From the NCBI RefSeq assembly GCF_030553305.1, contig NZ_JARRAH010000001.1, forward strand, positions 868,001 through 932,000: DNA of 64,000 nucleotides, read 5' to 3'. The notes beneath the pieces were generated by a model. That model was not told the origin of the DNA, ran no database searches, and worked only from the letters and a program-made list of their open reading frames with translations. Every line of letters begins with the position of its first letter. Position 1 is the stretch's first letter. Origin of the DNA: Halomarina ordinaria (GTDB lineage: Archaea > Halobacteriota > Halobacteria > Halobacteriales > Haloarculaceae). Position numbers and translations under genes: made by a program. This document shows, piece after piece, positions 152-64,000 of the stretch.

Positions 152-871
152 ATGCTGAGCGACGTGATGGAGGACTACCTGAAGGCCATCTACCTCCTCC
201 AGCGGGACGCGGCCACCGGCACCACGAGCGGAGACCCTCCGAGCGAGGCGCCCGTCCGCGCCGAGCGCGTCTCGACGTCCGCCATCGCCGAGCGCATGGA
301 GGTGACGCCGCCGACGGTGACGAGCATGCTCGACAAACTCGAGGAGCGCAGCCTCGTCGAGCGCGAGAAGTACAAGGGCGTGCGCCTCACCCGCGAGGGG
401 GAGACGGTCGCCATCGAGGTCATCCGTCACCACCGCCTCATCGAGGCGTACCTCGCGGAGGCGCTCGACTACGAGTGGACCGACGTCCACGAGGAGGCCG
501 ACCGCCTCGAACACCACATCAGCGAGCGCTTCGAGGCGCGCATCGCCGAGGCGCTCGGCGACCCCACCGTCGACCCCCACGGCGACCCCATCCCGGGGAC
601 CGACCTCGCGCCGCCGGAGGACGTCCCCGGCCACCGTCTCGACGAGTGCGAGGTGGGCGACCGGGTGGTCGTCCAGCGCGTCCGCCACCGCACCGACGAG
701 GAACTGCGCTACCTCGCGGAGGCGGGCGTCGCACCGGGGACGGAACTCGAAGTCGCCGAGATCGCCCCCTTCGGAATGGTGACCGTCACCGGCGAGACGG
801 GGCGACAGAGCCTCCCCGCGGAGGTGGCCCGCCAGATTCGCGTCGCGGGCGTCGCCGTCACGCGGGAGTGA
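152..871 (+). CDS. DtxR/MntR/SirR-family metal-dependent transcriptional regulator
   Basis: A 239-residue cytoplasmic DNA-binding protein that should sense Fe2+ or Mn2+ and repress uptake genes. The N-terminus begins with the family signature (MLSDVMEDYLKAIY). A winged helix follows (SAIAERMEVTPPTVTSML, about residues 48-70), then the metal-binding/dimerisation domain with the expected His/Glu cluster (VIRHHRLIEAYL, EEADRLEHHISE, about 95-135). The C-terminal ~75 residues form a FeoA/SH3-like domain. A ~20-residue Gly/Ser/Pro-rich insertion (about 21-40) sits between the first helix and the HTH. Four DtxR-like palindromes (TTAGG-N4-CCTAA) occur elsewhere in this window and are plausible targets; none is seen before this gene. 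Halobacteria carry several paralogues (Idr, SirR, TroR types) and I cannot tell which this is. Confidence 0.93.
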   Translation: MLSDVMEDYLKAIYLLQRDAATGTTSGDPPSEAPVRAERVSTSAIAERMEVTPPTVTSMLDKLEERSLVEREKYKGVRLTREGETVAIEVIRHHRLIEAYLAEALDYEWTDVHEEADRLEHHISERFEARIAEALGDPTVDPHGDPIPGTDLAPPEDVPGHRLDECEVGDRVVVQRVRHRTDEELRYLAEAGVAPGTELEVAEIAPFGMVTVTGETGRQSLPAEVARQIRVAGVAVTRE

Positions 872-5615: not shown

Positions 5616-5629
5616 TTAGGTCTGCCTAA
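5616..5629. promoter_or_regulatory. candidate iron box (TTAGG-N4-CCTAA)
   Basis: TTAGGTCTGCCTAA, a 5-4-5 inverted repeat, lies 9 nt before the ATG at 5639 and just downstream of a TATA-like CATAAGTTTA (5609-5617). An operator here would cover the transcription start of a leaderless mRNA and block RNA polymerase. Half-sites match those known for DtxR/IdeR repressors. The same motif recurs at 44165, 50399 and 51625. Confidence 0.75.
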
Positions 5630-5638
5630 TCCGCGTGT

Positions 5639-6157
5639 ATGAAGCTGACGCGCCGGGACGCGCTGGTCGCGCTCGCGAGCCTCGGCGTCGCGGGCGGCGG
5701 CGTCGCCCACCTCGCGCGCGAGGGGGACCGAGCAGCGGCGGACGAGGGAGGTGTCGAGGCGCTCGGGACGCTCGTCGCCGCGGCGGAGGTCCTCTACCCG
5801 AGCGACGTCGAGGGTATCGAGTCGTTCGTCGAGTCCTACTCGCTGGGGCGCGTCGAGGACCGCGAGGCGTACCGCGAGGGCCTCGACGACGCCCTCTCCG
5901 AGGTCGAGGCCGCCGCCCGGTCGTGGTACGACGACTCGTTCGCCGCCCTCGACCGCGAGACGCGCGACGCGCTGTTGCGCGAACTGGGCGCGGACGTGGC
6001 CGACGCCGTCCCCGACGGCTCGCGCGCCGAGCGCGTGCGCTACTACGTCGTCGACGAACTGCTCTACGCGTTCTACGCCTCGCCGACGGGCGCGGAACTC
6101 GCCGGCAACGAGAACCCGGTCGGCCACCCGGGCGGGACGGAGGCCTACCAGGCGTGA
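5639..6157 (+). CDS. gluconate 2-dehydrogenase subunit 3-like protein, Tat-exported
   Basis: 172 residues. The N-terminus is a Tat signal (TRRDALVALASLGVAGG). The rest is helical and matches the subunit-3 family that accompanies membrane or periplasmic GMC dehydrogenases: VLYPSDVEGIESFVESY, then SFAALDRETRDALLREL and a C-terminal YYVVDELLYAFYASPTG. The partner is the overlapping downstream GMC oxidoreductase (GTGA overlap). The subunit probably carries the catalytic partner through the Tat pathway, since the GMC protein has no signal of its own. A candidate iron operator precedes it. Confidence 0.88.
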   Translation: MKLTRRDALVALASLGVAGGGVAHLAREGDRAAADEGGVEALGTLVAAAEVLYPSDVEGIESFVESYSLGRVEDREAYREGLDDALSEVEAAARSWYDDSFAALDRETRDALLRELGADVADAVPDGSRAERVRYYVVDELLYAFYASPTGAELAGNENPVGHPGGTEAYQA

Positions 6158-7752
6158 CCGACGTCTGTATCGTCGGCTCCGGTCCGGCGGGCGCGCTCGT
6201 CGCCCACCGCCTGGCGACGCGCGACCGGGACGTGACGGTCCTCGAAGCAGGGCCACGCTTCGACCCCGACGCCCGACTCGAGCGTATGGAGGAGGCCATC
6301 CGCCCCGGTCACGACGCGCTGTCGGTGTGGGACATGGGCGGGGACCGCGACGCCTTCAGCGCGCCCGAGCGGTTCTACCCGCTGAACAGCACGCGCGTGA
6401 AGGGTATCGGCGGCTCCTCGCTCCACTGGCAGGGGATGGTGATGCGACTCCACGAGTCCGACTTCGACGGGAGCGAGGACGTCGCCTGGCCCATCTCCTA
6501 CGCAGACCTCAGGCCGTACTACGCCGCCGCCGAGGCGGAACTCGGCGTGGCGGGCGCGAGCGACAACCCGTTCGGCCCGCCGCGAGAGGAGTCCCACCCG
6601 ATGCCCGCCTTCCCGCCCTCCGAGACGGACGCCCTGTTCGCCGAGGCGTGCGAGACCCTCGGCATCGCCACCCACTCGGTCGGCAACGCCCGCAACTCCG
6701 AGCAGTACGACGACCGCTCGGCGTGCGTCGGCTACGGGACCTGTAAACCGGTCTGTCCCTCCGGGGCGAAGTACACCGCCGAGCGCCACGTCGAGGCCGC
6801 CGAGGAGGCTGGGGCGACCGTCCTCGCGGAGGCGCCCGTCCAGCGCCTCGAGACCGACGCCTCGGGCGAGCGCGTCACCCGCGCCGTCTACGTGCGAGAG
6901 GGCGAGGAGCGGACCGTCGAGGCGCGACAGTTCGTCGTCGCGGCGGGCGGCGTCGAGACGCCCCGCCTCCTCCTGCTCTCCGCGTCGGAGGCATACCCCG
7001 ATGGCCTGGCCAACTCCTCGGGCCTCGTGGGGCGGTTCTTCAACGACCACCTGTTCGCGGGGATGGGCGGGCGCCTCGACCGGGCGGTGAGCGAGAACGA
7101 CATCGGCTTTCTCACCGCCGAGTCCCACCAGTTCTACGACGACCCCGGCGCCGAGACGCGGGGGATACCCGGCAGCGACGCCGACCTCGGCCCCATCAAA
7201 CTGGAGTTCCTCAACTACGCCGGCCCCTCGACGACGGGCGCGCCGTCGCCGGTCCGCATCGCGCTCGACGGCGACGACTGGGGCGACGCCCTGCTCTCGC
7301 GCATCCGCCGGGAGTACGGCTCGAACGTCGCCCTCGGCGCGCTCGTCGGCCAGCGAGCGCGCGAGGAGAACCGGGTGACGCTCGACCCCGAGCGGACCGA
7401 CGACCACGGCAACCCCGTCCCGCGAGTCGAGTGGTCGGTGGGCGAGCGCGCCCGGCGGACGCTCGCCCGTGCCAACGAGATTCAACGCGCCGTCATGGAC
7501 GAACTCGGCGCCGAGGTGACGTGGGAGGTCGGTCCCGAGAACACCGGCCCCGCGGCCCACCACATGGGGACGACCCGGATGGGGTCGGACCCCGAGGGGA
7601 GCGTCGTCGACGCCCGCCTGCGGACCCACGACGTGGCGAACCTCACCGTCGCCTCCAGCAGCGTCTTCCCGACCGGCGGCGCGGTGAACCCGACGCTCAC
7701 CATCGCCGCGCTCGCGCTGAAGGTGGCCGACCACGTCGACGAGGACCTCTGA
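6154..7752 (+). CDS. GMC family FAD-dependent oxidoreductase
   Basis: 532 residues, GTG start overlapping the previous stop by 4 nt. N-terminal Rossmann FAD motif (VCIVGSGPAGALVAHRL), GMC signature region (GIGGSSLHWQGMV, about residue 87), a Cys-containing GYGTCKPVCPSGAKY segment typical of gluconate/2-keto-gluconate dehydrogenase large subunits, and the C-terminal GMC_oxred_C ending GGAVNPTLTIAALA. Catalyses oxidation of a sugar, alcohol or sugar acid; substrate not predictable. Works with the subunit-3 protein encoded immediately upstream; both sit behind a candidate iron box. Confidence 0.92.
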   Translation: MTDVCIVGSGPAGALVAHRLATRDRDVTVLEAGPRFDPDARLERMEEAIRPGHDALSVWDMGGDRDAFSAPERFYPLNSTRVKGIGGSSLHWQGMVMRLHESDFDGSEDVAWPISYADLRPYYAAAEAELGVAGASDNPFGPPREESHPMPAFPPSETDALFAEACETLGIATHSVGNARNSEQYDDRSACVGYGTCKPVCPSGAKYTAERHVEAAEEAGATVLAEAPVQRLETDASGERVTRAVYVREGEERTVEARQFVVAAGGVETPRLLLLSASEAYPDGLANSSGLVGRFFNDHLFAGMGGRLDRAVSENDIGFLTAESHQFYDDPGAETRGIPGSDADLGPIKLEFLNYAGPSTTGAPSPVRIALDGDDWGDALLSRIRREYGSNVALGALVGQRAREENRVTLDPERTDDHGNPVPRVEWSVGERARRTLARANEIQRAVMDELGAEVTWEVGPENTGPAAHHMGTTRMGSDPEGSVVDARLRTHDVANLTVASSSVFPTGGAVNPTLTIAALALKVADHVDEDL

Positions 7753-44164: not shown

Positions 44165-44178
44165 TTAGGCACGCCTAA
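44165..44178. promoter_or_regulatory. candidate iron box (TTAGG-N4-CCTAA)
   Basis: TTAGGCACGCCTAA, with six paired bases per arm (TTAGGC/GCCTAA), the most symmetrical of the four boxes. It sits 8 nt before the ATG of the minus-strand small gene, with a TATA-like CCTTTTAGC just upstream on that strand (44181-44189). The gene at 44201 ends just beside it, so that gene is not the target. Confidence 0.75.
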
Positions 44179-50093: not shown

Positions 50094-50429
50094 GGTGTGG
50101 TGTCTGTCGCGCCCGTTCACCCCGGTCGGAGCCCGAAGCCGACATCGGAGATGAACCCGCGCACCGTTGTTGCGGTGGTCACTGCGAGCCGTATGAAAGG
50201 CTTGTCCTAATATGGCCTAGTAGAAAGTAGGTCGAATACATATAACACGTCAATCAGTTGAACGGCACCGAGTATCGGGCTACAGAGAGCTATTGTGTAC
50301 CGGTAACGACCAAGGTGTGTGATTTTATATCATGGAACGTATTCCCACGACACGATGAACCGCTGTCAGGAGTGCGCCCGTCGAGAACGGCAGTTATTTT
50401 AGGTACCCCTAAAACTAGGGGAGTAAGGA
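50094..50429. other. 336-nt divergent intergenic region
   Basis: Separates the ketoreductase operon from the glycosyltransferase gene. AT-rich segments at about 50232-50250 (ATACATATAACACG) and 50320-50335 (GATTTTATATCATGG) are plausible promoters. The iron box at 50399 and its overlapping repeat serve the glycosyltransferase side. No small gene seen. Confidence 0.5.
50399..50412. promoter_or_regulatory. candidate iron box with overlapping second inverted repeat
   Basis: TTAGGTACCCCTAA (50399-50412) lies 17 nt before the ATG at 50430. CCCCTAAAACTAGGGG (50406-50421), a perfect 6-4-6 repeat, overlaps its right arm, so three half-sites (TTAGG, CCTAA, CTAGG) stand in a row. Tandem half-sites allow binding of two repressor dimers, as in DtxR/IdeR operators. 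Confidence 0.75.
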
Positions 50430-51590
50430 ATGACCGCCGACACCTGCGTCATCGTCCCCACGATCCGGGAGTTCGAGTGCATGCGAGCGTACTTCGAGAA
50501 CGCCCGCGCACACGGGTTCGACCTCGACCGACTCCACGTCCTGTTCGTCACGGAGGACTTCTGTGACGTCGGGGCGATGCGCGACCTGCTCGCCGAGGAG
50601 GACGTCTCGGGGGCGGTGTTCGACGGGAGTCGCCGCGAGCAGTGGTACGCCGAGCACGGTATCGAGGCGTACTCGCACCTCGTCCCCGCCGCCAGCCACG
50701 CCGAGACGAGCTTCGGACTGCTCTACCTGTGGGCGAACCCCGAGTTCGAGTACGGCGTCTTCATCGACGACGACACGCTCCCCCATCCCGACTTCGACTT
50801 CTTCGGGCGACACTTCGAGAACCTCGCCTTCGAGGGCGAGGCGACGGCCGTCGGGAGCGACGAGCGCTGGGTGAACGTCCTCTGGCAGAACGCCGACGAC
50901 CACGGCCTCTACCCCCGGGGCTACCCCTACAGCGCGATGGACGAGTCCGTCGAGGTCGGCACCGAGCGCGTCGACCGCGTCGTCGCCTCCCAGGGGCTCT
51001 GGACGAACGTCCCGGACCTCGACGCCGTCCGCATCCTCATGGACGGCGACCTCAGGGGGCAGGCACAGACCCGGACCACGCGCGAGGACTTCGAGGGGGA
51101 CTTCGTCGCCCGCGAGGGCGACTACCTCACCGTCTGCTCGATGAACCTCGCCTTCCGCCGCGAGGTCGTCCCCGCGTTCTACCAGCTGCCCATGGACGAC
51201 AACCCCTGGGACGTGGGCCGGTTCGACGACATCTGGAGCGGCGTCTTCCTCAAGCGCGCCTGCGACCTCCTCGGGACGACCGTCTACAACGGCTACCCGC
51301 TCTGTGAGCACAACAAGGCGGAGCGCTCGACGTTCAGCGACCTGAACAACGAGGTCCCGGCGCTCGAACTCAACGAACACGTCTGGCACATCGTCGACGA
51401 CGCGGGAGAGGGGGCGAGCACCTACGCCGAGGCGTACGAGGCGATGGCGCGGGCGCTCGTCGACCACGAGAACGACTACATCAACGGGGAGTTCCTCACC
51501 TACGTCGGCGAACACATGCACGAGTGGGTCGAGTGCCTCGACGCGCTCGCGGAGGCCGAACCGGCGCCCGCCCCCGCCTCGGACGACTGA
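50430..51590 (+). CDS. RGP/UDP-arabinopyranose-mutase-like glycosyltransferase
   Basis: 386 residues. Family of reversibly glycosylated polypeptides (alpha-1,4-glucan-protein synthase-like): VIVPTIREFECMRAY start, DDD-type metal site in GVFIDDDTLPHPD (about residue 113), then CSMNLAFRREVVPAFYQLP and NPWDVGRFDDIWSG. These enzymes are sugar mutases or self-glycosylating proteins. Positioned behind a compound iron box just upstream of the iron importer; why iron would control it is unclear. Confidence 0.85.
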   Translation: MTADTCVIVPTIREFECMRAYFENARAHGFDLDRLHVLFVTEDFCDVGAMRDLLAEEDVSGAVFDGSRREQWYAEHGIEAYSHLVPAASHAETSFGLLYLWANPEFEYGVFIDDDTLPHPDFDFFGRHFENLAFEGEATAVGSDERWVNVLWQNADDHGLYPRGYPYSAMDESVEVGTERVDRVVASQGLWTNVPDLDAVRILMDGDLRGQAQTRTTREDFEGDFVAREGDYLTVCSMNLAFRREVVPAFYQLPMDDNPWDVGRFDDIWSGVFLKRACDLLGTTVYNGYPLCEHNKAERSTFSDLNNEVPALELNEHVWHIVDDAGEGASTYAEAYEAMARALVDHENDYINGEFLTYVGEHMHEWVECLDALAEAEPAPAPASDD

Positions 51591-51624
51591 CCGACTCGAA
51601 ATCGAACCAGCAGGTATAAGTGTT

Positions 51625-51638
51625 TTAGGCGAACCTAA
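51625..51638. promoter_or_regulatory. candidate iron box before the Fe(III) ABC importer
   Basis: TTAGGCGAACCTAA lies 7 nt before the ATG at 51646. A TATA-like GTATAAGT is at 51613-51620. This is the box with the clearest biological fit: it precedes an iron importer operon. Confidence 0.82.
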
Positions 51639-51645
51639 ACAAGTG

Positions 51646-52815
51646 ATGAGCGACGCAAACCGACCGCGCCGCGCGTTCCTCCAGGCGGCGGCGGTCGCTG
51701 GTACCGCAGGACTCGCGGGATGTATGGGGCTGTTCAGTGACGACGGCGAGAACGACACCGGCAACGGTACCGAAGGGAACGACACCGCCCCCGACACCGG
51801 GCAGATCGGCTCGGGTCGCGAGGGCCGCGGGACGCCCGGCGGGACACCGATGGAGGAGATGCCGGAGCTCTCGGGGACCATCTCGGTCTACTCCGGGCGC
51901 GGCGAACCCCTCGTCGGGGCGCTGTTCGACTACATGGAGGACCTCTACTCCGACCTCACCATCGACGCCCGCTACGACAGCTCCGTCGCGCTGGTCAACC
52001 GAATCGAACAGGAGGGCGACAACAGCGCGGCCGACGTCTACTACACCGTCGACGCCGGCGGCCTGGGGTCGCTCGCGGAGGCCGAACGGACCGTGACACT
52101 CCCCGACGACGTCACCGAACTGGTCAGAGCGGAGTTCCGCTCGCCGGACGACCAGTGGATCGGCACCTCCGGGCGCGCGCGCTCCATCCCGTACAACACC
52201 GAGGCGTTCTCCGAGTCCGACATCCCGACGGACATCATGGCCTTCCCCGAACAGGACCGGTTCGACGACGTGATGGGCTGGGCGCCCTCCTACGGGTCGT
52301 TCCAGTCGTTCGTCACCGCGATGCGCGTCCTCCAGGGACGCGAGGAGACGAAGGCGTGGCTCGAAGGGATGCTCGACTCGGGTATCCAGGAGTACAGCGA
52401 CGAGTTCGCCATCGCCCAGGCCGTCGCCGACGGCGAACTCTCCGCGGGGTTCACGAACCACTACTACATCCAGCGCGTCCTCGACGGGCCGAACATCAGT
52501 CGCGACGACCCGCCCGTCGCCACGGCGTTCACCGAGAACGACGCGGGGGCGGTGTTCAACGTGGCCGGGGCGGCCGTCGTCGACACCGCGGACGACGAGG
52601 AGATGGCCGCGAACTTCGTCCGACACCTGCTCTCGGCCGAAGCACAGGAGTACTTCATCACCGAGACGTTCGAGTACCCGATGATTCCCGAGGCCGAACC
52701 AATCGGCGAACTCCCCACCGTCGACGAACTGGAACCGCCCGAGCTCGACCTGGCTGAACTCGCGGACCTCGAGCCGACGATCGAGCTGCTCAGGGAGGTC
52801 GGCATCACCATCTGA
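51646..52815 (+). CDS. Fe(III) ABC transporter substrate-binding lipoprotein
   Basis: 389 residues; GTG at 51643 is an alternative start. Tat signal and lipobox (RPRRAFLQAAAVAGTAGLAGC), Asn/Thr-rich linker, then the FbpA/FutA-type fold: SVYSGRGEPLVGALFDY, ADVYYTVDAGGLGSL, SGRARSIPYN and the Tyr-rich GFTNHYYIQRV that would bind ferric iron. Head of a three-gene operon (1-nt overlap with the permease). Confidence 0.92.
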   Translation: MSDANRPRRAFLQAAAVAGTAGLAGCMGLFSDDGENDTGNGTEGNDTAPDTGQIGSGREGRGTPGGTPMEEMPELSGTISVYSGRGEPLVGALFDYMEDLYSDLTIDARYDSSVALVNRIEQEGDNSAADVYYTVDAGGLGSLAEAERTVTLPDDVTELVRAEFRSPDDQWIGTSGRARSIPYNTEAFSESDIPTDIMAFPEQDRFDDVMGWAPSYGSFQSFVTAMRVLQGREETKAWLEGMLDSGIQEYSDEFAIAQAVADGELSAGFTNHYYIQRVLDGPNISRDDPPVATAFTENDAGAVFNVAGAAVVDTADDEEMAANFVRHLLSAEAQEYFITETFEYPMIPEAEPIGELPTVDELEPPELDLAELADLEPTIELLREVGITI

Positions 52816-54398
52816 TGGCGACCGACACGGGGACCGAGCGGGGGAACGGGGGGCTGTCGGTCAGCGTCACGCTCGTCGCGGGCGCCATCGCGGCACTCGT
52901 CCTCACGCCCGCCCTGTGGCTACTGTTCGGGGCGTTCGAGGCGCGCGGCAGCCTCGGCCTGCTCCTCGCCGACACCACCGTCGAGGTGTTCGTCAACAGC
53001 GTCCTCCTCGCCGTCGGCGTCACCGTCGCCTCCATCGCCATCGCCGTCCCGCTCGCGTACCTCACCGTCCGGACCGACCTCCCCGGGAAGCGACTGTTCA
53101 CCGTCCTGCTGTCGATGCCGCTGGTCGTCCCCTCCTACATCGGTGCGTTCGCCTTCGTCTGGCTGTTCGGCCCGGGCGGGTGGGTGAGCGACGTCCTCGG
53201 CACCGTCGGCCTCGATTCCCCGTCTATCTACGGGCTGTGGGGGTCCGTCCTCGTGTTGACGCTCTACACCTACCCGTACGTCTTCATCACCACGCGGGCG
53301 GCGCTGAAGACGATGGACACCGCGCTGGTCGACGCCGCCAGGACGCTCCGGCACACCCGCTGGGAGGCGTTCAAGCGCGTCACCTTCCCGCAGATTCGAC
53401 CCGCCATCGCCGCCGGGTCGCTGCTCGTCTCGCTGTACGCGCTCTCGGACTTCGGGACGCCCCAGATAATGCGCTACGACGTGTTCACCCGCGTCATCTA
53501 CAGCGCGCGGGCGTACGACTTCGACCTCGCGCTGTTGCTGTCGCTCCAGCTGGTCGTCGTCACGCTGTTCATCCTCGCCGTCGAGGCCCGGGTGCGCGGC
53601 AGCGGCGTCCGCTCGGAGCATCCGGGGCGCCAGCCGACGCCCGTCCGGCTGGGTCGGTGGACGCTCCCGGCGATGGCGGCCTGCCTGCTCGTCCCCCTCG
53701 TCGCGCTCGCCGTCCCGCTCGGCGTCCTCTCGCACTGGCTCACCGCCGGGACGGCCTCCTACAGCCTCACGTTCCAGCCGCGCTACGGGGCCGCCTCGGC
53801 CGTCCTCTCGCTGGGGGCGGCCGTGGTGGCGGCGCTCTGTGCGCTCCCGCTCGCGTACGTCGGCGCGCGCCGGCGCGGCCTCCTCGCAGCGGTCATCGAG
53901 CGCGCCTCGTACGTCGGCTACGCCGTCCCGGGCGTCGTCATCGGCCTCGCGTTCGTCTTCTTCGGCGCGCGCTACATCGGAGAGGGCTACTCCTCCGTCG
54001 CCGTCGCCATCCCGCTGCTCGTGTTCGCCTACGTCGTCCGGTTCCTGCCGCAGGCCGTGGGGTCGACCCGGACCTCCTTCGAGCGCATCAGTCCCACGCT
54101 GGGGGAGGCCGCACGGACGCTCGGGGAGAGCCCGGGGGGTGCCTTCCGCCGGGTGACGCTCCCGCTCGTGGCCCCCGGCCTGCTCGGCGGGGCGGCGCTC
54201 GTCTTCCTCACGACGATGAAGGAACTCCCGGCGACGCTCCTCTTGCTCCCGGGGTCGCACACCCTCGTGACCTACCTCTGGACCGCGGAGCGGGCGGGTT
54301 ACTACGGACAGGCGGCGCTCCCGGCGTTCGCGCTGCTGGCCGTGAGCGCCTGCTCGCTGCTCGTCATGCTGAAACTGGAGGGATACGATGTCGAATGA
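52815..54398 (+). CDS. Fe(III) ABC transporter permease (two-domain FbpB type)
   Basis: 527 residues, about 12 membrane helices in two homologous halves. Each half has a permease EAA-type loop: DAARTLRHTRWEAFKRVTFPQIRPAI and EAARTLGESPGGAFRRVTLPLVAPG. Such fused permeases (FbpB/SfuB) import ferric iron with one binding protein and ATPase. The ATG overlaps the stop of the binding-protein gene by 1 nt. Confidence 0.93.
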   Translation: MATDTGTERGNGGLSVSVTLVAGAIAALVLTPALWLLFGAFEARGSLGLLLADTTVEVFVNSVLLAVGVTVASIAIAVPLAYLTVRTDLPGKRLFTVLLSMPLVVPSYIGAFAFVWLFGPGGWVSDVLGTVGLDSPSIYGLWGSVLVLTLYTYPYVFITTRAALKTMDTALVDAARTLRHTRWEAFKRVTFPQIRPAIAAGSLLVSLYALSDFGTPQIMRYDVFTRVIYSARAYDFDLALLLSLQLVVVTLFILAVEARVRGSGVRSEHPGRQPTPVRLGRWTLPAMAACLLVPLVALAVPLGVLSHWLTAGTASYSLTFQPRYGAASAVLSLGAAVVAALCALPLAYVGARRRGLLAAVIERASYVGYAVPGVVIGLAFVFFGARYIGEGYSSVAVAIPLLVFAYVVRFLPQAVGSTRTSFERISPTLGEAARTLGESPGGAFRRVTLPLVAPGLLGGAALVFLTTMKELPATLLLLPGSHTLVTYLWTAERAGYYGQAALPAFALLAVSACSLLVMLKLEGYDVE

Positions 54399-55539
54399 AC
54401 TGACACACACGCCGGCGTCCACGACGGACGCCACCGACGCGACGACAGCCGTACCGCGCACCGCCGACCCCGACGGGGCACCCGTCCTCGAACTCGACGG
54501 CGTCTCCAAGGCCTTCGGCGACACCACCGTCGTCGAGGACCTCGACGTCACCGTCCACGAGGGCGAACTGCTCACGCTGCTCGGCCCCTCGGGGTGCGGC
54601 AAGACCACGACGCTCCGGCTCATCGCGGGCCTCGAACGTCCCACCTCGGGAACGGTCCGCCTGAACGGCGAGACCGTCTCCGGCGACGGGTTCGTCCCGC
54701 CCGAGGAGCGCGACGTCGGCGTCGTCTTCCAGGACTTCGCGCTGTTCCCCCACCTCACGGCGGCCGAGAACATCGCCTTCGGGTTGCGCGACCTCGCGGG
54801 GGACGAACGCGAGCGCCGCGTCGCCAACCTCCTCGAACTCGTCGGGTTGCCGGACAAGGGCGAGGCGATGCCGGACGAACTCTCGGGCGGCCAGCGCCAG
54901 CGCGTCGCGCTCGCGCGTTCGCTCGCGCCCGAACCGCACCTCCTCCTGCTCGACGAACCGTTCTCGAACCTCGACGTCGACCTGCGCGTCGAGATGCGCG
55001 AGGAGGTCCGGCGAATCCTCTCCGAGGCGGGCGTCACCGCCGTCTCGGTCACGCACGACCAGGAGGAGGCGATGTCCATCTCCGACCGCGTCGCCGTCAT
55101 CTCGGCGGGGCGACTCGAACAGGTCGACACCCCCGAGCGGGTCTTCCAGCAACCCGCCTCGCGGTTCGTCGCGGGGTTCCTCGGCCACGCGAGCTTCCTC
55201 GCCGGGTCGGTCGAGGGGGAGGTGGTCGAGACGGGCCTCGGTCCCGTCGCCCGCGAGCGCATCCCGGGGCTGACCGCCGAGTACGACGGCACCGACATCG
55301 ACGTGCTGGTGCGTCCGGACGACGTCCACGCCCACGCCGACGGCCCCGACAACGGGACCGTCGTCCATCGGCGCTACCTCGGGCCGACGGTGCTCTACCG
55401 CGTCGAACTCGACGCCGGCGACACTATCTCCTGCATGCACAACCACGCCGACGAGGTCGGCCTCGACGACCGCGTCCGCGTCGACCTGACCGCCGACCAC
55501 GAGCTGGCGTGGTTCCCGCGAGGTGAGCGAGCGTGGTAG
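54388..55539 (+). CDS. Fe(III) ABC transporter ATP-binding protein
   Basis: 383 residues, overlapping the permease by 11 nt. Walker A (LLGPSGCGKTTTLRL), LSGGQRQRVALARSL, Walker B HLLLLDEPFSNLDVD, VTHDQEEAMSISDRV; the C-terminal TOBE-like domain (residues ~280-380) holds DVLVRPDDVHAHAD. The FbpC/PotA class. Its last codons (WFPRGERAW) lie in a sequence repeated twice downstream (see repeat). Confidence 0.93.
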   Translation: MSNELTHTPASTTDATDATTAVPRTADPDGAPVLELDGVSKAFGDTTVVEDLDVTVHEGELLTLLGPSGCGKTTTLRLIAGLERPTSGTVRLNGETVSGDGFVPPEERDVGVVFQDFALFPHLTAAENIAFGLRDLAGDERERRVANLLELVGLPDKGEAMPDELSGGQRQRVALARSLAPEPHLLLLDEPFSNLDVDLRVEMREEVRRILSEAGVTAVSVTHDQEEAMSISDRVAVISAGRLEQVDTPERVFQQPASRFVAGFLGHASFLAGSVEGEVVETGLGPVARERIPGLTAEYDGTDIDVLVRPDDVHAHADGPDNGTVVHRRYLGPTVLYRVELDAGDTISCMHNHADEVGLDDRVRVDLTADHELAWFPRGERAW

Positions 55540-55690
55540 CGAGCGGCCGAGCGGGAGCAGGGAGCGACGAGACTGTGTTCCCGCGAGGTGAGCGAGCGTG
55601 GTAACGCGAGTGACCGAGCGGGAGCAGGGAGCGAACCGGAGCGGAGCGACCGGGTTCCCGCGAGGTGAGCGAGCGTGGTAGCGAGCGACC
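55512..55690 (+). repeat. three direct copies of the end of the ABC ATPase gene
   Basis: The segment starting GTTCCCGCGAGGTGAGCGAG occurs at 55512 (inside the coding end), 55577 and 55654. Copies share ~28 nt (to GTGGTAGCG or GTGGTAACG), and the first two also share the following CCGAGCGGGAGCAGGGAGCG block. Spacing is 65 and 77 nt. The tandem copies fill the gap before the next gene, whose upstream GTG candidate at 55665 lies inside copy three. Confidence 0.8.
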
Positions 55691-55706
55691 TCGTGTCGGC
55701 ACAGCA

Positions 55707-57785
55707 GTGACGAACGCCGGCCCCGTTCGACGGTTCGCCGCCCGACGAGCCTGGTCGCTCGCGCTCTGTGCCCTCGCCGCGCTCGCCGGTCTCTCGGTCC
55801 TCCTCGTCGCCCGCGAACTGTTCCCCTACCTGACGGTGAACCACGACGAGGGGGTCTACCTCCAGCAGGCGGCGATGCTGCTGGAGGGGAACCTCTGGCT
55901 CACGACCGACCACCCCGGGGCGTTCCGCCCGTGGTTCTTCGTCCAGGACGGCGCGCGCCTCTACCCGAAGTACTCGCCCGTCCCGTCGCTGCTGTTCGCG
56001 CCGGGGGTCGCCGTCGGAGCACCGCGGGTCGTCCTCGGCCTCGTCGCGGCGGGGAACGTCGCGCTCGTCGGTCTGCTCGTCCGGGAAGCGTACGACGCGC
56101 CGACGGGCCTCCTCGCCGCCGGGGTCGCGCTGGCGACGCCGTTCTTCGTGCTCATCTCCGCCGCGTTCCTCCCCTACGCCCCGACGACGCTGCTGAACCT
56201 GCTGTTCGCGCTCGGATACGTCCGGATGGTCCGCCGGGGGAGCTACCGGTACGCCCTCCTCGCCGGGGTCGCCGTCGGCCTCGCGTTCTTCGCCCGGCCG
56301 TACACGGCGGTGCTGTTCGCGGCGCCGTTCATCGTCCACGCGCTCCTCACGCTCGTGCGAGTGGTCCGTGAGCGGGGGGTGCGCGGGGCGAGCGTCGTCC
56401 CCACCGCGCGCCTGCTGACCGTCGTCGCCCTGCTCGGGACCGCCGGCGTGGCCGTCACACTGGCGTACAACCGGGTCGTCACGGGCGAGGCGCTCCTGTT
56501 CCCCTACCAGGCGTTCGCGCCGCTCGACGGCCCCGGGTTCGGCTACCGACGGCTCCTGAACCACGACGTGGTGTACACGCCCGCGCTCGCGCTCCGGACG
56601 GCGGGCCACCTGCTGTGGGAACTCGCGACGCGCTGGACCGTCGCGCCCCCCGTCGGGACGCTCCTCGCGCTCGTCGGCCTGCTCACCGTCCGCGGAGAGG
56701 GTGAGGCGGGTCCCGAGGCGCTCCCCGACCGGACGCTCCGCCTGCTGTTCGTCGGCGTCGCGGTCAGTGTCGTCGTCGGCAACGTCTTCTTCTGGGGGTC
56801 GTTCAACGTCCTCGCGGACCTCGGTGACCCGACCGACGGGTTCATGAGCGAGTTCGGCCCCTTCTACCACTTCGACCTGCTGTTGCCCCTCGCGGCGTTC
56901 GGCGCGGCGGGGGCACGCCTGCTCGTGCGGCGGGGGCGCGCAGTCCTCGCCGCGCGGACCGACTACCTCCGCCTCGCGGCGCTGGTCGTCCTCGTGGTCA
57001 GTGCGCCCGCCCTGGTGGGCGCGCAGGTGACGGCCCTCGACGGGCCCGTCGAGGAACACGCCGCCGAGACGGAGAAGTACCGGACGGGCGTCGAACCGGT
57101 GGCCGAGGCGTCGTTCGACCGCGCGCTCGTGTTCGTCCCCCGGACGTACGGCCCGTGGCTCAACCACCCGTTCCAGACGCTCCGGAACGGCGGGTCGCTC
57201 TCGTCGGGTGACGTGCTCTACGCGCAGGACCGCGACGCCGCGGGGAACTTCGCGGTCGTCGACCGCTACCCCGAGCGAACGCTCTACCGCTTCACCTACC
57301 AGGGCGAGTGGGGGACCGACCCCGAGGCCCGGGTGACGCCCGCGCTCCAGGAACTCTCGGTCCGCGAGGGCGAGCGCCACGCGGTCGAGACGACGGTCGG
57401 AACCGTCGGGACGCCCTCGACGGCACGTCTGGAGACCGCGGAGGGGACCGCGACGGTCCCCGTCGAGGCGAGCGGCGAGTCGGCGACCGTCGAGTGGGCG
57501 CTCGACGACGACGGGGCGGCGGTCGGCGGGGAGTCGGTCCCGCTCGCGGCCGACGGGACGGAGACCGTCGCGCTGACGGTGACGTTCGTCCAGGAGGGCG
57601 GGTCGACGCTCACCTACCGACAGGAGGTGGCGGTCGACGCCTCGGAGGGGTCGGTCAGGATACTCTGGCCGGGGAAGACGTCGGTCTGTTCGCTCACGAC
57701 CGACTGCGGCCGCGAGGGGACGTACCTCCCCGACGGGGACTACGTGTCGGGGGCGTCCGTGAACACCACCGTCCGCACCCGTTAG
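55707..57785 (+). CDS. membrane glycosyltransferase of the GT39/ArnT-like class
   Basis: 692 residues from the GTG at 55707; the GTG at 55665 lies in the repeat and is rejected. About ten membrane helices in the first ~450 residues. The first extracellular loop carries the catalytic Asp-Glu motif (NHDEGVYLQQAAM), followed by PKYSPVPSLLFAPG; the C-terminal ~250 residues are a soluble beta-rich domain (TAEGTATVPVEASGE; LTVTFVQEGG). Probably transfers a polyprenyl-phosphate sugar to a surface glycan; acceptor unknown. Confidence 0.82.
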   Translation: MTNAGPVRRFAARRAWSLALCALAALAGLSVLLVARELFPYLTVNHDEGVYLQQAAMLLEGNLWLTTDHPGAFRPWFFVQDGARLYPKYSPVPSLLFAPGVAVGAPRVVLGLVAAGNVALVGLLVREAYDAPTGLLAAGVALATPFFVLISAAFLPYAPTTLLNLLFALGYVRMVRRGSYRYALLAGVAVGLAFFARPYTAVLFAAPFIVHALLTLVRVVRERGVRGASVVPTARLLTVVALLGTAGVAVTLAYNRVVTGEALLFPYQAFAPLDGPGFGYRRLLNHDVVYTPALALRTAGHLLWELATRWTVAPPVGTLLALVGLLTVRGEGEAGPEALPDRTLRLLFVGVAVSVVVGNVFFWGSFNVLADLGDPTDGFMSEFGPFYHFDLLLPLAAFGAAGARLLVRRGRAVLAARTDYLRLAALVVLVVSAPALVGAQVTALDGPVEEHAAETEKYRTGVEPVAEASFDRALVFVPRTYGPWLNHPFQTLRNGGSLSSGDVLYAQDRDAAGNFAVVDRYPERTLYRFTYQGEWGTDPEARVTPALQELSVREGERHAVETTVGTVGTPSTARLETAEGTATVPVEASGESATVEWALDDDGAAVGGESVPLAADGTETVALTVTFVQEGGSTLTYRQEVAVDASEGSVRILWPGKTSVCSLTTDCGREGTYLPDGDYVSGASVNTTVRTR

Positions 57786-63560: not shown

Positions 63561-64000
63561 TCAGCGTAGCCGCTCTTCGAGGCAGACGCGGAGGATGGAG
63601 CCGGCGATGGCCGCGCCGCCGGCGAGCGGGTCGAGTTTCGTCTCGCCGGCGCGCTCGCGGTAGTCGATGGGTTCCTCGCGCACCCGGTAGTCGCGCATCA
63701 GCGGCCGGACGAGCAGTTCGGCCGAGAGGCCGGTGTTCTCCGTCCAGCGGATGCGCCGGACGACGTCGCGGCGGTAGGCGCGCATCCCGGTGGTGGTGTC
63801 GTGGACGCGCCGGCCCATGAGGGCGCTCGCCAGCAGCGCGAAGGCGTGGTTGCCGAGGCGGTTGAACGCCGGCATCGCCGAGGCCCCGTGGTAGAGGCGG
63901 TCGCCGCTGACCACGTCGTACCCCTCGTTGATTCGCTCGAGGAAGCGCGGGAGCGCCTCCATGGGGTAGGTGTCGTCGCAGTCGGTGGTGACGACGACGG
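63561..64000 (-). CDS. dolichyl-phosphate hexose-type GT2 glycosyltransferase, C-terminal part (N-terminus beyond the window)
   Basis: About 146 residues are visible, entering at the right edge and ending at TGA 63561-63563. The DxD region TDCDDTYPME is present (about residues 6-15 of the visible part), then GYDVVSGDRLYHGASAMPAF, HDTTTGMRAYRRDVV and SAELLVRPLM. This is the DPM1/dolichol-phosphate mannosyltransferase-like GT2 group, making polyprenyl-phosphate sugars for N-glycosylation. Partial at its N-terminal side. Confidence 0.9.
   Translation of the reverse strand, partial: VVVTTDCDDTYPMEALPRFLERINEGYDVVSGDRLYHGASAMPAFNRLGNHAFALLASALMGRRVHDTTTGMRAYRRDVVRRIRWTENTGLSAELLVRPLMRDYRVREEPIDYRERAGETKLDPLAGGAAIAGSILRVCLEERLR

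Follow-up and report, generated by a model that had tools for sequence, protein, structure and literature searches.

Sequence comparison supports a predicted iron operator before an RGP-family gene of Halomarina ordinaria that lies beside a Fe(III) importer. We favour, on balance, a model in which an iron-repressed operon joins Fe(III) uptake to a putative two-enzyme, probably furanose-based, surface-glycosylation step. This model is based on conserved boxes, tight gene spacing, a GT75 fold with intact catalytic residues, and the near-perfect co-presence and co-absence of two glycan genes. Iron-dependent glycan remodelling, raised in an earlier note on this DNA, would be the likeliest role of the gene, and the arrangement, present in most of the haloarchaea examined, suggests a change in the sugar coat of the cell when iron is short. 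In the window (the whole 64,000-nucleotide stretch that was analysed), the predicted operon runs in the order GT75 gene, ferric-binding lipoprotein, permease, ATPase and GT-C transferase:

50397 to 50414, no strand: DtxR-type iron box TTTTAGG-tacc-CCTAAAA, exact, before the GT75 gene
50406 to 50421, no strand: second inverted repeat CCCCTA-aaac-TAGGGG, present in the window, not conserved, probably not regulatory
50430 to 51590, plus strand: GT75/RGP-family protein, 386 aa, matching PF03214 and MtdL, with a predicted model resembling MtdL
51623 to 51639, no strand: second iron box TTTAGG-cgaa-CCTAAA, exact, before the ferric-binding protein gene
51643 to 52815, plus strand: FbpA-type ferric-binding lipoprotein (SBP), with a PDB match and an NxYY motif
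52815 to 54398, plus strand: ABC permease (BPD_transp_1)
54388 to 55539, plus strand: ABC ATPase with a TOBE domain (ABC_tran, TOBE_2)
55665 to 57785, plus strand: probable GT-C-type membrane glycosyltransferase (PMT), 706 aa, with Pfam PMT_2 and DUF7846, co-occurring with the GT75 gene

The box before the RGP gene had been described as an inverted repeat at 50399-50412; it is exact and longer, spanning 50397-50414. Of 293 Halobacteriales genomes, 220 have a GT75 orthologue, and we surveyed the 150 nt upstream of the GT75/RGP start in 123 loci from 122 genomes. These comprise 60 spread over genera, 59 low-scoring loci from which fragments were excluded and 4 named records, a non-random sample outside which lie about 99 of the 220 gene-bearing genomes. 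The box is exact in 112 loci, carries one mismatch in 6 and is missing from 5, and an exact match arises in 0.03% of shuffled upstream regions (first 60 loci). Across these orthologous promoters the flanks of the ten selected box positions are also kept (T 99%, A 96%), and the spacer is variable. Within the 250 nt before the other operon genes, a box with at most one mismatch is found in none of 121 loci for PMT and none of 85 for the ATPase gene; an exact box precedes the permease gene in 9 of 101. The earlier note had staked its reading on conservation of both adjacency and box in relatives, and suggested looking for RGP homologues with iron transporter genes in other Halobacteria. Both features are kept, the box at the frequencies above and the SBP gene at its normal spacing of 1.0-1.6 kb downstream of RGP in 115 of the 123 loci.

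The same palindrome marks other iron genes of this genome. An extended form, TTTAGGNNNNCCTAAA, has 12 copies in the 3.61 Mb genome versus 0 for the reversed pattern, and the shorter form, TTAGGNNNNCCTAA, occurs exactly at 15 places. By a simple reading of open reading frames by eye, four of these 15 sites lie 1-6 nt before FhuD-like siderophore-binding lipoproteins; the RGP gene, the iron SBP and a gluconate-dehydrogenase-subunit-3/GMC oxidoreductase pair each follow one site, two sites lie 2 nt before HTH regulators, and the remaining six have no clear target. Common to iron genes and conserved between species, the palindrome has the properties of a DtxR-type iron operator. It resembles the known haloarchaeal DtxR-family iron regulons (Idr/SirR/FerR) in placing TTAGG-N4-CCTAA boxes upstream of both FhuD-like and FbpA-type genes, but the predicted regulon here takes in a GT75/GT-C pair. 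The available part of PMC11349517 mentions FerR signals upstream of fhu operons. One candidate reader of the box, from a genome with three PF02742 matches (one below cut-off), lies within the window, 50 kb from the operon:

152 to 871, plus strand: DtxR/SirR-type regulator, 239 aa, candidate box reader (PF02742, 99.2 bits)

Further boxes were observed elsewhere. The window holds an additional exact TTAGG-N4-CCTAA box at 44165-44178, without a clear target gene, and another exact iron box at 5616-5629, 10 nt before a gluconate-2-dehydrogenase-subunit-3 gene (5639-6157) that is followed by a GMC oxidoreductase gene (about 6160-7749). A GMC gene adjoins the RGP cluster in 25 of 60 relatives, often with boxes. 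The two HTH regulators (L012 and L016; G000 C2:153128 and C4:114873) are paralogous and bat/HTH-10-like by eye, and the ATG of each lies 2 nt after an exact iron box, which suggests an iron-controlled regulator layer.

Two overlapping repeats had been read in the earlier note as a compound operator of three half-sites before the RGP gene. The second repeat is indeed present at 50406-50421, but a third half-site TAGG at the window's register occurs in 0 of the 112 exact-box orthologous promoters, and the compound three-half-site operator is therefore not supported. The best orthologous copy of the second repeat is 2 mismatches away, and in the window the repeat continues into the GGGGAG that precedes the GT75 ATG; it is probably a product of chance and the ribosome-binding stretch. 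True tandem boxes are seen in the RGP promoters of other lineages (for example L056, L071 and L096): 21 of the 112 promoters contain two separate exact boxes, 29 nt apart in 13 of these.

The importer next to the GT75 gene had been called a Fe(III) transporter with its own box, and both parts of this description are borne out by the box at 51623-51639 and by the match of its SBP to iron-binding proteins. Searched against the PDB, the SBP matches 28 sequences, almost all of which bear the names of iron-binding proteins (7w3w best, at 5.9e-59), and the NxYY motif is present in all 119 RGP-linked SBP orthologues; homology and the Tyr-Tyr motif together identify it as an FbpA-type ferric-binding protein. 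The operon shares with FbpABC-type ferric ABC importers the SBP sequence match, the NHYY motif and an adjoining permease and ATPase. It differs from them in being bracketed by GT75 and GT-C genes, and in that 27 of 119 haloarchaeal loci have the SBP without a permease or ATPase before the GT-C gene. Median gaps are 48 nt between RGP and SBP, 7 nt between SBP and permease, -8 nt between permease and ATPase, 2 nt between ATPase and PMT and 17 nt between SBP and PMT where the two adjoin. This tight spacing through to the GT-C gene supports a single predicted operon. The ATPase-PMT gap in the window is 125 nt, which makes it less sure than in most relatives that PMT is co-transcribed. Relatives of the transporter also occur without the pair: among genomes that lack RGP, an SBP match is found in 53 of 57 searched, some of them only short signal-peptide matches, and a box within one mismatch stands at 15 of 30 SBP loci inspected.

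The strongest rival to the iron-and-glycan operon holds that the box is simply the operator of the iron-transport genes, and that the glycan genes are there by history, under an iron control that means nothing physiologically. It draws its strength from the five box-less loci, four of which have either no SBP or a displaced one: L047 and L048 have neither SBP nor box, and L066 and L107 have a displaced SBP and no box before RGP. The fifth, L162, is a second RGP copy. This pattern fits a box kept for the transporter. In addition, 17 of 119 loci have no separate SBP box, which leaves the transporter there dependent on the first box. On the other hand, the SBP has a box of its own with at most one mismatch in 102 of the 119 loci (99 exact, 3 with one mismatch), yet the GT75 box is kept; L117 and L120 retain an exact box though their SBP is displaced to about 2.1 kb. 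The last locus outside the normal spacing, L124, stops at a contig edge and has an exact box. We regard this explanation as unlikely, though a serious competitor to the operon model.

The protein encoded behind the first box is a divergent homologue of the GT75 family and comes closest to MtdL, an NDP-pyranose mutase. Its RGP-type identity, proposed from the sequence at the outset, is confirmed by the Pfam RGP family (PF03214, 58.3 bits against a cut-off of 23.8, profile positions 91-339 of 342). The closest solved relatives by sequence in the PDB are MtdL (4.4e-26) and rice UAM (6e-5). An AlphaFold2 model built from 7 sequences (pLDDT 70.5, pTM 0.79, some weak loops) has MtdL as its top Foldseek match (E 3.5e-20, TM 0.74-0.76 by query and 0.77-0.78 by target), followed by rice UAM2 (TM 0.60 by query, 0.67 by target). 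On this match the protein is assigned the GT75 fold (GT-A part, core and C-terminal helices).

Residue roles in this family (the DDD motif, a Mn-binding His, an autoglycosylated Arg and a general-base Asp) come from the MtdL work, as described in the available part of PMC9937993, which also states that GT75 enzymes need Mn2+ or Mg2+ and that mutation of MtdL D87 abolishes activity. Across 124 sequences (the window and the 123 loci), the DDD motif at D113-115, R163 (MtdL R159), D267 (D260) and H294 (H287) are invariant, and by alignment R163 is the predicted autoglycosylated Arg, H294 the Mn-binding His and D267 the general-base Asp. Also invariant in all 124 are D196 (MtdL D195), S237 (S228) and R264 (R257). 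The likeness to the GT75 mutases, MtdL of the Marinactinospora A201A pathway and plant UAM/RGP, extends over fold, DDD motif and the predicted autoglycosylated Arg, Mn-binding His and general-base Asp, but identity to MtdL is 25%, and no acidic residue occurs at MtdL position 87 or at 86 (the plant type) in any of the 124 sequences. Both positions are Ser89-His90 throughout, with D87 aligning to the invariant His90, and MtdL R289/H292 align to K296/R299. These substitutions stand against the GT75 activity proposed in the operon model. Because the D87 equivalent is an invariant His, we file the protein as a GT75 homologue, not a mutase, and its pyranose-furanose mutase activity is putative. The base-selecting MtdL positions, read by eye, are mixed (P10 plant-like, S89 MtdL-like), and we therefore make no prediction of nucleotide specificity. 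A further difference from MtdL and plant UAM, as compared by sequence and model, is that the haloarchaeal gene sits in an iron-boxed operon and not among antibiotic or cell-wall genes.

In a phylum sample of 294 genomes, PF03214 gives 40 matches, all within this order; since the profile detects the haloarchaeal branch weakly, absence from the rest of the sample can be claimed only at this sensitivity. The Haloferax volcanii genome has a match. One haloarchaeon encodes, besides a divergent member, a plant-type RGP (L176; G049 C2:1525556-1526527) that scores 451.9 bits to PF03214 and has Asp-Ser at the MtdL 86/87 positions.

The predicted GT-C gene at the operon end appears, from its distribution, to be an obligate partner of the GT75 gene. 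Both genes are present in 219 of 293 genomes and both absent from 72, with two discordant cases: G133 (77% complete) has PMT only, and the sole RGP-only genome, G190, has a 43-residue match with a stop. Fifteen genera include both species with the pair and species without it. Deletion of one linked cluster could account for part of this co-loss. The earlier note, which rightly placed its glycosyltransferase in the RGP family (now a GT75 homologue closest to MtdL), had not named this partner. PMT matches PMT_2 at 34.7 bits (cut-off 26.1) and has no sequence match in the PDB. Its predicted model is weak (pLDDT 64.8), and 29 of the best 30 Foldseek matches are named GT-C enzymes or OST complexes, at TM 0.24-0.37 by query; they include the arabinosyltransferases AftA, AftD and Emb, with AftD titled an arabinofuranosyltransferase. 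AftA, AftD and Emb use furanose donors. In this low-confidence model, PMT resembles GT-C transferases (PMT, STT3/AglB, ArnT, Emb/Aft) in a multi-helix N-terminal part aligned by Foldseek, a PMT_2 domain and a beta-rich C-terminal part; it differs in those low TM scores and in its DUF7846 C-terminal domain.

In the operon model, a Fe-loaded DtxR/SirR-type repressor would occupy the box in iron-replete cells, overlapping a putative TATA element, and block transcription. Iron shortage would release the repressor, so that importer and glycan enzymes would be made together. The GT75 protein may convert an NDP-pyranose to an NDP-furanose via an arginine-sugar adduct, or hand the sugar on from that Arg. 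A polyprenyl carrier would bring the sugar to the outer face, and an extracytoplasmic acceptor would receive it from the GT-C enzyme; this acceptor may be a surface glycolipid or the glycan of the S-layer or of a lipoprotein. The cell would thereby alter its surface glycan while raising Fe(III) import.

A bolder version, which we consider speculative and rather doubtful, makes the GT75 gene, SBP and GT-C gene one unit. Under iron starvation, the GT75 mutase and an Emb/Aft-like GT-C enzyme would build a furanose-containing surface glycan that acts in concert with the ferric-binding lipoprotein; it might, for instance, retain Fe(III) at the surface or channel it there. If true, this unit would be a mode of iron acquisition that we have not seen described.

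The pair could instead glycosylate the ferric-binding lipoprotein encoded between its two genes, or the complex, for high-salt stability or anchoring. Of 123 loci, 119 have the SBP between the pair, and in the 27 of these noted above no permease or ATPase intervenes before PMT; N-x-T sequons are visible by eye in the linker of the window's SBP. However, in L047 and L048 the pair is present although no SBP separates the two genes, and sequon counts over the whole protein are similar, at 1.31 (RGP-linked) and 1.48 (RGP-less). Linker sequons occur in 11 of 53 measurable RGP-linked SBPs versus 1 of 16 in RGP-less genomes, a weak comparison, since the rule used to define the linker failed in 66 of the 119 RGP-linked and 14 of the 30 RGP-less proteins. 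With no general sequon enrichment in these SBPs, we judge such a cognate target improbable.

The earlier note had also raised a siderophore-glycosylation step; on this reading the GT75 protein would modify a siderophore taken up by the adjoining importer, as the iron box and iron transporter beside the gene might suggest. The importer is instead of FbpA type, predicted to take up free Fe(III), and the partner enzyme is a membrane protein of GT-C-like kind. IucA/IucC siderophore synthetase is missing from the window's genome and does not track the gene among 293 genomes (63 of 220 with the gene, 26 of 73 without; p = 0.30). For the IucA/IucC route, which is what these counts cover, this distribution disfavours siderophore tailoring, and we hold the proposal to be very improbable. 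DtxR-family members may sense Mn, and a DtxR/MntR-type sensor could tune a Mn2+-dependent GT75 enzyme to metal supply in keeping with the metal need of the family, but the same box precedes FhuD-like and FbpA-type iron genes, and control by manganese in place of iron is equally hard to credit.

Other glycan genes lie near the cluster. In relatives, its neighbours include a GT2 gene (38 of 60), a UPF0104/LPG_synthase_TM gene (21 of 60) and an epimerase gene (16 of 60), and the window ends in a partial GT2 gene:

63564 to 63998, minus strand: partial GT2 gene, polyprenyl-phosphate-sugar-synthase-like (tblastn, 80% identity over 145 aa; GT2 Pfam match on a representative)

The UPF0104 family is a predicted glycan-lipid flippase family in the portion of PMC5898192 available, and its member HVO_1859 rises 11.6-fold in iron-starved Haloferax volcanii according to the accessible text of PMC11349517. 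We dropped HVO_1859 as a flippase gene beside RGP: HVO_1861 is called ThiL in an excerpt of PMC4215014, and the gene before RGP in two Haloferax loci is a helicase-like ORF.

Haloarchaeal iron regulons were already known, as were archaeal GT75 entries, the latter noted in the consulted part of PMC9937993. Our literature search, whose scope did not take in the main regulon papers (Leyn and Rodionov 2015, Idr), returned no paper joining an archaeal GT75 gene to haloarchaeal iron regulation. The iron-gene table of PMC11218638, in the portion available, names no glycosyltransferase, and the available part of PMC8305020 contains nothing on this subject.

Each part of the proposed operon is of a known kind, and its wiring is unusual. 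Three quarters of the sampled Halobacteriales genomes retain the GT75 gene and the GT-C gene as a pair, placed behind an iron box and by a ferric importer. The haloarchaeal protein offers an archaeal GT75 enzyme in which the Asp-to-His change at the sugar site would probe the mutase mechanism, and the question of whether archaeal surface glycans change with nutrient state becomes testable in a tractable organism.
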